A stretch of DNA of 33,326 bases from positions 1 through 33,326 of the forward strand of contig PFUL01000025.1 of the NCBI GenBank assembly GCA_002790095.1, written 5' to 3'. Position 1 is the first letter of the stretch. Each line of letters starts with the position of its first letter. The translations under genes and the position numbers were made by a program. This document shows positions 13,562-33,326 of this stretch, piece after piece. The notes under the pieces were generated by a model that had not been told where the DNA came from, made no database searches, and saw only the letters and a program-made list of their open reading frames with translations. The stretch is from Elusimicrobia bacterium CG_4_9_14_3_um_filter_62_55. GTDB lineage: Bacteria; Elusimicrobiota; Elusimicrobia; UBA1565.

Positions 13562-14473
13562 GTGAGACGACTGCAAATTCCGTTCGCGTTCGCGTTCGCC
13601 GCGGCCTGCGCCGCGCCCGCGCCGCGCTACGCTGCGCACGACCCGCTCTCGGGCGCGCCGTCGCCCTCCGCGCACGAAGCCGACGGCGTCCACCTCTACA
13701 CCGCCGTAATCCCCCAAGGCTACACCCGCAGCGACGGGCGCTTCTCCGCGCCGCTCGTGGAATTTCTGCATCGGCCGGTCTACGGGGGGGAAGCCTCGAT
13801 CATGCTGGAGCGCTACCGCGAAGCCGACGGGGCGCCGGACCGGGAGTCCTTCGCGCGAAACCTGCACCCGTCCCGCCCGGTGCCGACCCTTCGGGAATTC
13901 GCGCAGAAGAAGCTCGCGGTCTATCACGACCTGCGCTTTGAATCCTACACGCGCCGCATTTCCACGAGCGATCCCTACGCCGACGTGCTCGGCGAGGACA
14001 TCGCCCCGCCCCGTCTCGATCCCCTCGGCAAGCGCCGCTTTCCCAAAGGCGGCGACGCCTTCCGCCTTCACCGCTGCAAAAAGAAAGGCGCCTGGGCAAT
14101 CCTGACCGATCAGACTCGCGCGCGCGTCGGGCTTGAGAAGGGCTCCCCCGAGCCCAAGCCCATCTCGCCTCGGGACCGCAGCCTGCTCGCGACCTGCTTC
14201 GGCCGAGGCGTTCTCGAGCATCTCGAAAAAGGGGAACCCTACGGCAGCATCCCCAAGCCCAGCCTCTCCCGCCTGCGGCTGATGGCGACCGACGAATGGG
14301 AGCATGGGGCCGCCCGCCGCATCGAGCGCGAGTGCGTCCATCTGCGTCCCACGCAGGACGGCTATGCGGTGATCCGCTTTCGCGCGCCGGATCACGCCTT
14401 CGACGACCAGCACGCGGCGTTCGAGTTGTTTCTCGGGAGTTTGACGGTGCCCGGGGAAACGACGGGACGATAA
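13562..14473 (+). CDS. putative lipoprotein of unknown function
   Basis: A 303-residue protein with a hydrophobic N-terminus and a possible lipobox (AFAAAC, Cys at about 16), so it is probably exported and lipid-anchored. The mature part contains ATDEWEHGAARRIERECVHL and ends with FELFLGSLTVPGETTGR. I see no known domain, but the build resembles small exported surface-binding proteins that end in a dimerisation-like helix and strand. The start is GTG 13562. TAAACT at 13549-13554, which includes the stop codon of the preceding gene, ends seven bases before it and matches the carB arrangement. The stop codon TAA is the first three bases of the 285-bp palindrome. Confidence 0.7.
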   Translation: MRRLQIPFAFAFAAACAAPAPRYAAHDPLSGAPSPSAHEADGVHLYTAVIPQGYTRSDGRFSAPLVEFLHRPVYGGEASIMLERYREADGAPDRESFARNLHPSRPVPTLREFAQKKLAVYHDLRFESYTRRISTSDPYADVLGEDIAPPRLDPLGKRRFPKGGDAFRLHRCKKKGAWAILTDQTRARVGLEKGSPEPKPISPRDRSLLATCFGRGVLEHLEKGEPYGSIPKPSLSRLRLMATDEWEHGAARRIERECVHLRPTQDGYAVIRFRAPDHAFDDQHAAFELFLGSLTVPGETTGR

Positions 14474-14755
14474 ACGGAAACGAACGGAACGTTTACGCGC
14501 TTCGGGCGCGTGGCTCGAAGAATTGCTTCGCAATTCTCCGAGCTCCAACGGAAACGGCTCGGCCCTCCCGGGCGAACGCGCCTCCAGCAACGGAAATTCG
14601 TGCAATTGAAAATCAACGGCGTTCGTTAAAGGAGCGTTCGCCCGGGAGGGCCATGCCGTTACAGGGCCGTTGCCTTTCGAGCTCGCGCGTTTTTTGCGAA
14701 GCAAAAAACCGCGAGCCACGCGCCCGAAGCGCGTAAACGATCCGTTTCCGTTTAT
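14471..14755. repeat. 285-bp imperfect palindrome between convergent genes
   Basis: The left arm begins TAAACGGAAACG and continues CGTTTACGCGCTTCGGGCGCG; the right end is its reverse complement, with a 4-base indel, for about 43 bp (14471-14517 against 14713-14755). Inside, each arm has its own mini-hairpin (GAATTGCTTCGCAATTC on the left, TTTTTTGCGAAGCAAAAAA on the right). A second matching block follows, GGCCCTCCCGGGCGAACG paired with CGTTCGCCCGGGAGGGCC. The element exactly spans the gap, taking the stop of the left gene and reaching one base into that of the right. Part of it recurs at 31720-31860. It could end transcription in both directions, but its size and recurrence point to a REP- or MITE-like element. 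Confidence 0.8.
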
Positions 14756-15585
14756 CAGGGCGCCGAAAAATACAGCGTGCGCGTCGCGGGATCGATGCGC
14801 AGGATGAGGGTGGGACCGTCCTTCACCTTGTATTTCTTCGCCTGTCCCGCGGAGAGTTCCGAGAACGGGACGATGAGCCGCTTCAGATCCGGCGAGCCGC
14901 TTCCCTGTTTGCGGTCGTAGGCGATCACGATGCCGAAGCGGTCGTTCACGATGCGGCCGTTGGGCTGTCGGTCGAGGTCGTTGGAGAAGTAGACTCGAAA
15001 CTCCCGGCCGCCGGCCTTCACCTGCGCCCCCTGGGCATAGGCCTTGTTGACGAGGTCCTGAATCTCGATGTCGTAGACGGAACCGGCGCGGTCGGCTTGA
15101 ATGCGGATGTGGTTGCAGATCTTGCAGAAGATATTCGTGATGCGGACGTCGGCGCGGTAGTTGAGCGCGCCGGTGCGCCAGCGGCCGTCCATGCTACGTT
15201 CCAAGCGCGAGAAGTTGGGAACGACCTCGCCCGGGGGGAGAACGCCGAGGTAGGATTCGCCGACGAGGTCGAAGGTGACGCTGACCTCAAAGGTCTTTCC
15301 GTCGTGCGTGAAGCGGTCCACGCCGGTCCAATGCTTGTTGAAGATCCCATCGAGCAGTACCGCCGAGCTTTCCCGGCTGAGGACTCGGACGACGGGTTCG
15401 CCCTCGACGAGCTCGCCGCCCGGCACCAAAGACCCGTCGTCGAGTTCCACGGGGCGGGGGGCTTCCACCGGGGGGACGGCGGCCGCAAACGGCGCTCGCG
15501 CGCCGGGGACGCCCGTGAAAACGCCCTGGGCGCCGGCCGGGGAGGCCGAGAGCAGAACCGAGAGAACGACGCGTCGGATCAACAC
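14755..15585 (-). CDS. exported protein of unknown function with CxxC
   Basis: A 276-residue protein with an N-terminal signal sequence (MLIRRVVLSVLLSASPAGAQ, likely cut after GAQ or AQG). The mature part is mostly beta-like, with a CKIC motif at about residue 155 that could bind metal or form a disulfide, and a C-terminal IDPATRTLYFSAP. I do not recognise a family. The start is GTG 15585; GATACT on the minus strand ends seven bases upstream. It converges on the lipoprotein gene across the large palindrome and diverges from the exported protein at 15739. Confidence 0.7.
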   Translation of the reverse strand: MLIRRVVLSVLLSASPAGAQGVFTGVPGARAPFAAAVPPVEAPRPVELDDGSLVPGGELVEGEPVVRVLSRESSAVLLDGIFNKHWTGVDRFTHDGKTFEVSVTFDLVGESYLGVLPPGEVVPNFSRLERSMDGRWRTGALNYRADVRITNIFCKICNHIRIQADRAGSVYDIEIQDLVNKAYAQGAQVKAGGREFRVYFSNDLDRQPNGRIVNDRFGIVIAYDRKQGSGSPDLKRLIVPFSELSAGQAKKYKVKDGPTLILRIDPATRTLYFSAP

Positions 15586-31224: not shown

Positions 31225-31602
31225 ATGGGATCCAAAAACTACCTGAAGCAGGACGCCCCTTTCCGGGTGCCGACCGACGACGGGAAACTGATCGAAGAAC
31301 ACTTCGGCGGCGCGAGCCTCAACGGCGCCGCCTTCAGCGTCGCACATATGGTCGCCCCGCCGGGGTGGGGGGAGCCCGCCCAGAAACCCGATTTCGACGA
31401 GATCACGATGGTCGTCCGCGGCCGCAAACGCATCGAAGTCGACGGGGAGGCCGTGGAGCTCGGTCCCAACGAATCCATCCTCGTCCGCCGCGGGGCGCGC
31501 GTGCGGTACTGCAATCCGTTCGCGGAAGAACTGGAATACTGGTCGGTCTGCATCCCGGCCTTCTCTCCCGAGACCGTCCACCGCGAAGACCCGGCGGCTT
31601 AG
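31225..31602 (+). CDS. cupin-domain protein
   Basis: A 125-residue single-cupin protein. DEITMVVRGRKRIEVDGEAV and LGPNESILVRRGARVRYCNP form the two cupin motifs. The usual first-motif HxH is replaced (KPDFDEITMVV), as in EutQ- or capsule-type cupins, so metal binding may be altered. No substrate can be assigned. GGAGG at 31214-31218 lies six bases before ATG 31225, one of the few clear ribosome binding sites here. The stop TAG touches the first copy of the 21-bp direct repeat. Confidence 0.8.
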   Translation: MGSKNYLKQDAPFRVPTDDGKLIEEHFGGASLNGAAFSVAHMVAPPGWGEPAQKPDFDEITMVVRGRKRIEVDGEAVELGPNESILVRRGARVRYCNPFAEELEYWSVCIPAFSPETVHREDPAA

Positions 31603-31623
31603 GCGATCTTCTCCCGCCGCACC
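31603..31623 (+). repeat. 21-bp direct repeat, left copy
   Basis: GCGATCTTCTCCCGCCGCACC is repeated exactly at 31888-31908, where it codes for the last residues (RREKIA region) of the minus-strand gene. This copy, with TTA just before it, still spells the same ending and a stop codon on the minus strand. Confidence 0.85.
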
Positions 31624-31887
31624 CGTTTCATCGGCGGTAGACGCTCAACTGTCCCCGGGGACAGTCGTCGTTTCCCGCGCGTCACGCTGCTCCCATCGGG
31701 GTGGTTTTGGAATTTTGAAATTTACCGGCGTTCGTTAAGGGCGCGTTCGCGCGGGAGCGCCGAGCCGTTTCCGTTCGAGTTCGCGTGTTTTCGCGCCAGC
31801 GAAAACCGCGAACCTGGCGCACGAGGCGCCACGCAGTCGCGCACGAAGCGCGAAAGAAAATCCGTTCAATAGACGCGAAACCGCTAC
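31624..31887. repeat. repeat-rich insert between cupin and frameshifted gene
   Basis: 264 bp lie between the two copies of the 21-bp direct repeat. The right half (about 31716-31860) is homologous to the right arm of the 285-bp palindrome at 14471: it shares CGGCGTTCGTTAA, then GCGTTCGC-CGGGAG, then TTCGAG-TCGCG and an analogous GTTTTCGC/GCGAAAAC hairpin (31787-31806). Two further hairpins with ACGAR loops follow: TGGCGC/GCGCCA (31815-31831) and TCGCGC/GCGCGA (31837-31853). The left half contains a perfect 18-bp palindrome around CCCCGGGG (31648-31665). No ORF is supported. Confidence 0.7.
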
Positions 31888-33117
31888 GCGATCTTCTCCC
31901 GCCGCACCGAGCGGCTGAACCGACGCGAGAGGGCCTCGATCGCGCGTTCGTCGGGGACCCAAAACAGATCCCAGGAATAGTCCGCCCGGCGAAACAGCGG
32001 ACGGTCCGAGACGAGAATCGAGCCGGTCCGCTCGCGGTTGACCCACAGGTCGAACAAAGACACAGGCGCGCCGGTTCTCATGTCGGAGAGGACGGGAATT
32101 TCCCAGAGCGCCCGCTTGAAGCGGTCCGGGCGATCCCGCTCCGGTTGGGTCAAGACCTCCGCGCAGCGCTCCAGCGTCCAGTAGGTCCATTCCCCGAAAC
32201 CCACCATCCACTCCTGATCCGGCGCGAGCGCGGCCTGGCGCCGGAGCGTCGCGGCGCGCAGACCCGCCGCTTTGAGGAGCAGGCGGCGGGCCTCCCCGCG
32301 CAGGAAGGAACGCGCGGCCTCGAACTTCGCGTCCTGCACGAACCCCGCCAAGGACGCCGTCAAGCGCAGATCATCATCGTCGAGAAATCCCCAAACGCCG
32401 ACCATCGGCCCGGCGAACGGCAGCCTCTGGACCAAGACGCCGTAATGGCACCACTCGATCTCCCCGTGTTCGCCGCCGACGAGTTCCAAAAATCCATGCC
32501 GGGATCCGTGATCGAAGCGAAGCGAGATTCCTTTGCCGCTCGGCTGAGCGCGCCGCTGCAACTCCCCGTAAAACCGGAGCTGTGCGCGGCCGTACCCGCT
32601 CGCGGCGGTCGCGCGCGCCAGCCCCTCGCGAATCGCGTCCGGCGCCTCGCCCCGCGGCCACAACACGCGCAGCGCCGTTTCGCCGCCGTCGGCTCCGCCC
32701 TCCAAGGCTTCCAAGCGGTCCTGGTCCAAACCGGTGATGCAAAGACGCAGGCGCTGCTCCAGCGGGCCCGATACCGTCCGGATCTCGGTCGCGCCGAGCC
32801 GCAGCGCGCCGAGAATGCCGAAGCCGAAATGCTTCAAGCGCGGATCGGCGCGTTCTTCTTCCGGCGAAAATCCCGCCGTAGGGATCCCGAAGCTCCGGGC
32901 GGGTAAAGGGCCTGCCGTCGAAACGAAAACTCAGTTCCTTTCCGTCGAAGTCGAACGCGATGCGCCGGGCGCCAGAGGCCTCGGCCGTGCGAATCCAGCA
33001 GTTGACGAATTGCCCGGGTTCGGCCAGTTGGAACGCGCTCAGCTTTTCAAGCGCCTTCGCGCGGTCGACTCGAAACGATCCCGACTCGACCAGTTCGCCG
33101 CGTTCCTCCGCGTCCAT
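31884..33117 (-). pseudogene. frameshifted gene of unknown function (possible GHKL/Hsp90-like N-terminus)
   Basis: The N-terminal frame reads MDAEERGELVESGSFRVDRA, then KALEKLSAFQLAEPGQFVNC, GARRIAFDFDGKELSFRFDG and RPELRDPYGGIFA. The frame then changes at about 32850-32870, in a GAAGAAGAA run, and continues as ERADPRLKHFGFGILGALRL to RREKIA. Joined, this is about 410 residues. The order (helix, beta strand, FDG turn, then RLKHFGFG) resembles degenerate GHKL/Hsp90-type ATPase domains, but the match is weak. ATG 33117 is preferred over ATG 33171, because TATGCT on the minus strand (33124-33129) ends six bases upstream. The shift may be real decay or an assembly error. Confidence 0.6.
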
Positions 33118-33210
33118 TCCGCTAGCATAGCTCCCGGCGGAGGATTTCGCCATGCGACGGAGTTCCTCCATGTTCCCGTAGTTTCAAGGACGGAATGCCC
33201 CCAACGGCGC

Positions 33211-33259
33211 GGACGCCCCCGCGGGGGGCGTCCAGCCTCGGCGCGCAAGCGCGCCGAGG
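33211..33259. other. two perfect tandem hairpins
   Basis: GGACGCCCCC pairs with GGGGGCGTCC across GCG (33211-33233), and CCTCGGCGCGC pairs with GCGCGCCGAGG across AA (33236-33259). Neither has a following T-run on either strand. They lie upstream of the minus-strand gene; the rest of 33118-33326 holds no gene I can support. Confidence 0.6.
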
Positions 33260-33326
33260 GGAAATACGAGAGTTGCCCTCGGCATAATGGATTTTACGCC
33301 GGCGGGCTCCAGGCGACGCGCTCCCG

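Follow-up and report, generated by a model that had tools for sequence, protein, structure and literature searches.

A 21-bp direct repeat around a repeat-bearing segment between convergent genes of an Elusimicrobia bacterium: a probable insertion with target duplication

In the stretch of DNA analysed here (the window, 33,326 nucleotides of a contig from Elusimicrobia bacterium CG_4_9_14_3_um_filter_62_55), it was found that an exact 21-bp direct repeat, GCGATCTTCTCCCGCCGCACC, brackets a 264-bp segment at the junction of a cupin gene and a minus-strand gene that converge on each other (Table 1). The best reading of this arrangement, judged from the sequence, is that a repeat-bearing segment was probably inserted at the junction with duplication of a 21-bp target. 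The locus probably reflects the ordinary biology of mobile repeats, apart from a target duplication that is unusually long and clean, and the first interpretation of it is probably right in outline.

Table 1. Coordinates in the window of the features discussed in the text
Feature	Position	Strand	Remarks
Cupin_2 gene	31225..31602	+	PF07883, E 1.6e-7; stop codon TAG at 31600-31602
Outer 21-bp repeat copy	31603..31623		minus strand reads VRREKIA, ending GCC TAA
Putatively inserted segment, 264 bp	31624..31887		bounded by the two 21-bp copies; repeat-family matches inside
18-bp perfect palindrome ACTGTCCCCGGGGACAGT	31648..31665		14 sites in the genome
Homologue of the palindromic repeat family	31709..31866		84% to contig C116 across the span; 31726-31829 92% to contig C74
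Tip of the segment, GTAG on the minus strand	31884..31887	-	source of the TAG stop for the minus-strand frame
Inner 21-bp repeat copy	31888..31908		minus-strand frame retained, VRREKIA
Minus-strand gene	31884..33171	-	frameshift near 32860-32880
Full-length palindromic relative	14471..14757		abuts both flanking stop codons (14471-14473, 14755-14757)
Part of a different composite repeat	33168..33326		tip CCATGTTCCCGTAGTTT; copies elsewhere 97-99% identical; contig ends inside

The direct repeat and the two gene ends

The two copies of the repeat lie in the same orientation with a start-to-start spacing of 285 bp. If the comparison is extended to the left by TA, the match becomes 23 of 24 residues (TAGGCG... 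versus TACGCG...). The 21-mer is confined to positions 31603 and 31888 in the whole 4.31-Mb assembly when up to 2 mismatches are allowed. Shuffled versions of the window gave 0.01 matches (up to 3 mismatches), and the longest exact direct repeat obtained by simulation was 13 bp (60 Markov simulations of 31300-32200). Chance similarity or an assembly artefact is very hard to credit as the origin of the repeat; the assembly is broken into 202 contigs, but the 21-mer occurs at these two places alone and is far longer than chance would give, and a chimeric join would not leave its two sides with identical gene ends.

On the minus strand, both copies read GTG CGG CGG GAG AAG ATC, which is followed by GCC TAA in the outer copy and by GCG TAG in the inner copy. 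The outer TAA (the complement of 31599-31601) overlaps with the cupin stop codon TAG within the sequence TTAG at 31599-31602. Thus, the original prediction of an exact duplication of the gene end with two different endings, and of overlapping stop codons at the outer copy, can be read directly in the sequence. When the outer flanks are joined via one 21-bp copy, the minus-strand frame meets an in-frame TAA one codon past the repeat; the chance of an in-frame stop at that codon is 3 in 64 (~5%). Thus, the joined flanks give a sensible ancestor, in which the frame ends at a TAA overlapping the cupin stop codon, as a single insertion predicts.

Two other orders of events were considered. The repeat may have come first, with a later event such as gene conversion copying the 21-bp tail next to the cupin gene, and the sequence does not fix the order without an outgroup. 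This order is nevertheless improbable, because it does not predict that the outer frame stops at the same codon, for which chance gives about 5%. Alternatively, the tail may have been duplicated by slippage first, and the repeat may have landed between the copies later. Short tandem duplications are common, and nothing in the sequence speaks against such a course; but the second event must hit the boundary of the duplication exactly, and this less parsimonious history is quite unlikely as well.

If the insertion reading is followed, the 264-bp segment, which contains the 18-bp palindrome and a portion of a resident palindromic repeat, would have entered a convergent junction at which the two stop codons overlapped within TTAG. 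In this step, 21 bp of the minus-gene tail would have been doubled, presumably through a staggered break (or a repair step with the same effect) about 21 nt wide. The outer copy would have retained the old TAA context, while the inner copy would have remained joined to the minus gene and would now stop at the TAG supplied by the tip of the segment. The order of these steps is a conjecture and is not fixed by the sequence alone. The junction would then be a legible scar, from which one can read how a repeat gains entry to a zero-length gap between convergent genes with neither reading frame destroyed, the frame being preserved by a duplicated gene tail and a new stop codon from the insert.

Is there a relative with an uninterrupted junction? 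Among the best matches in 57 relatives and in 235 genomes of the class, no homologue of the minus-strand gene above about 32% identity was found, and the GTDB contigs had none. The relatives of the cupin gene have other neighbours instead of an adjacent homologue of the minus-strand gene. As no close relative of the minus-strand gene exists in the 235 class genomes, there is no empty site to compare and the insertion is unproven. The claim that an insertion duplicated its target therefore stands on a repeat far above chance that brackets mobile-type repeats, and on the in-frame TAA of the joined flanks, and falls short of the empty site.

The 264-bp segment and its palindromic relatives

The segment contains parts of a mosaic palindromic repeat family which has about 20 loci in this genome. 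Residues 31715-31829 match 14606-14732 at 73%, and residues 31740-31783 match the other arm of the 14471 palindrome (14539-14582) at 91%. The full-length relative at 14471-14757 is palindromic over almost its whole length (DNA fold -122 kcal/mol, z -15.8) and carries terminal inverted repeats. In contrast, the segment is not a full palindrome (z -3.6), and no matching inverted tips of the kind seen in MITEs were found in 31624-31887. The left outer arm of the family element is absent, and the 18-bp palindrome lies in its place. Thus, the predicted homologue of the 14471 palindrome proved to be a degenerate part of it, recognisable by partial matches. The insertion reading is supported by the fact that the segment is largely made of multi-copy repeat modules. 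No Rfam family matched anywhere in the window, and a known RNA family was set aside as the identity of the segment.

At 14471-14757, a near-perfect palindrome of 280 bp fills another convergent gap. A cruciform or hairpin of high stability could arise from it. A TA-type duplication (ATA...TAT) seems possible at that site; by eye, it is not repeated in the other copies.

Two genomes from the same taxonomic family also contain relatives of the repeat. In one of these genomes, 27 matches are spread over about 18 places; they too are long palindromes, and several are centred on variants of the 18-bp palindrome. Loci L141-L159 of genome G002 are relatives of the family with varying central palindromes (ACTGTCCGCGCGGACAGT, ACTATCCACGTGGATAGT, and GCTATCCCCGGGGATAGC), which suggests a conserved central site with a changing sequence.

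The flanks of the family members were compared with those of the segment. None of 31 other copies, from two genera, is flanked by a comparable direct repeat. In a scan of the fetched loci of this genome for exact repeats of at least 15 bp bracketing a family member, the 31603/31888 pair alone was found. These results rule out a regular 21-bp duplication as a trait of the family and indicate that the duplication is special to the event at 31.6 kb. The segment thus has the direct repeat of 21 bp expected of the target-site duplication of a MITE, and the other family copies have no comparable repeat.

Many family members lie at gene ends. In 10 copies, 12 of 16 element ends are located within 15 bp of the stop codon of an open frame heading toward the end (11 of 14 when the segment at 31.6 kb is excluded), while a random control gave 28 of 560 position-and-side tests near such stop codons. 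These counts are descriptive; the frames (at least 150 codons) are simple open stretches rather than curated genes, and recognisable tips only were counted. That other copies also adjoin gene stops supports the insertion reading.

The tips of the segment differ from those of the other family copies. Its right tip occurs once in the genome, and no other locus could be linked through it. A donor locus with the whole 264 bp was not found in the genome, in which partial matches only were present (the assembly is incomplete, at 95%). In a transposase-free variant of the insertion, a break or a stalled fork between the convergent genes would have been repaired by copying 264 bp, together with the repeat in it, from elsewhere, with synthesis restarting 21 nt back. 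Such a repair is a tentative possibility to which the unusual tips, the partial family member, and the lack of a sister copy duplicated in the same way all point; against it, no donor of the whole 264 bp is seen among the partial matches of the 95% complete assembly.

Candidate agents and comparison with known systems

Either an IS1634-type transposase acting in trans or a transposase-free repair may have been the agent of the insertion. I found one gene for an IS1634-family transposase in this genome (NF033559, 128.9 bits against a cut-off of 100), which is the only DDE_Tnp_1 transposase found in it. The gene lies at residues 39-1000 of locus L187 (contig C154 of this genome) and is cut by the contig start, and the left end of the element is not visible. 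It is reported that IS1549 and IS1634 produce direct repeats of 8-514 bp, and, according to a 2008 study, no mechanistic model for such long and variable duplications had been put forward by then (PMC2266710). Thus, the presence of an IS1634-family transposase supports the insertion reading, and on the basis of this presence alone it is plausible that the IS1634-type transposase acted in trans as the insertion agent. However, a partial element and unusual tips are explained equally well by a repair-associated templated insertion, and one cannot choose between the two agents. The insertion reading itself is weakened by the odd tips, by the lack of a similar duplication in the other sampled copies, and by an IS1634 link that consists of presence alone.

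A broader proposal is that the mosaic palindromic family inserts at stop codons, donates a stop codon, and generates variable-length duplications by means of an IS1634-type transposase in trans. This general scheme seems unlikely. The junction is the sole duplicated case in its family, and it points to the IS1634-family transposase as a testable partner for long and variable duplications. A short sequence directly after the stop codon of the IS1634-type gene, AACGGCGAAGTTTA, is also the tip of a palindromic repeat in contig C69, which is a weak lead.

The locus resembles IS1549 and IS1634 insertions in having a long direct repeat of non-fixed length, in a genome with a transposase of that family. 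It differs from them in that the insert is non-coding and has no demonstrated tips in common with the resident IS1634-type element.

Another comparison is with REP/GTAG palindromic repeats and BIMEs, which are mosaics often situated in convergent gaps, less than about 20 bp from the ends of genes (PMC3733652, PMC2817692), and whose GTAG tips reportedly often donate TAG stop codons to the flanking genes (PMC3733652). The modules described here are likewise palindromic mosaics near gene ends, and a GTAG tip supplies a TAG here too. However, the units are 260-340 bp in length, there is no clear GTAG-tagged stem-loop, and they are not found beside the six Y1 transposase genes. Next to the GTAG tip of the segment, a short stem-loop of the multi-copy kind known from REP/GTAG sequences (20-40 bp) was not found. 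Y1/RAYT transposases were dismissed as the agent of the family, since none of the six Y1_Tnp genes in the genome is flanked by a family member. A separate repeat, CGGTACCGGAGATGCATGAGTGCATGAGTTGA, occurs at positions 1325, 3229, 4504, and 5811 of the window, and three further copies surround a Y1 transposase gene at another locus (L125).

The family is similar to MITEs in being small, non-coding, and multi-copy, with palindromic full-length members, and the composite repeat nearby shows inverted tips together with short target duplications. It differs in that no matching autonomous element was found, and the duplication at the segment, at 21 bp, exceeds the 7-11 bp seen at that nearby repeat.

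The minus-strand gene and the neighbouring repeat

The minus-strand gene is disrupted upstream of the junction. The frame of its N-terminal part (start at 33171) is not that of its C-terminal part (31884-32837), while its best relatives are single open frames and distant relatives have at least 438 codons. No Pfam match was found for it. Either a pseudogene, a gene with a frameshift, or an assembly error accounts for this. Thus, although the frame and the stop codons are as originally described, it cannot be taken for granted that the gene end is functional.

The broken gene is sandwiched between two repeats, the second of which is the composite repeat at the end of the window. This repeat is about 300 bp when complete and has inverted tips. 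Direct repeats were searched for within 16 bp of its tips, and it was revealed that 3 of 5 complete copies have exact flanking direct repeats (11, 9, and 7 bp), while a fourth has an 8-bp flanking repeat with one mismatch. As controls, 20 mismatched pairings gave repeats of 6 bp or less, and random 16-mers reach 7 bp in 0.9% of cases. Repeats of this genome thus seem to insert with duplications of variable length, which supports the reading of the 31.6-kb junction as an insertion. By eye, no transposase was recognised beside the partial copies, and an autonomous version of the neighbouring repeat was rejected as a candidate. The minus-strand gene has its predicted ATG (33168-33171) within the tip of this repeat, and near-identical copies of the repeat are located at the ends of several contigs.
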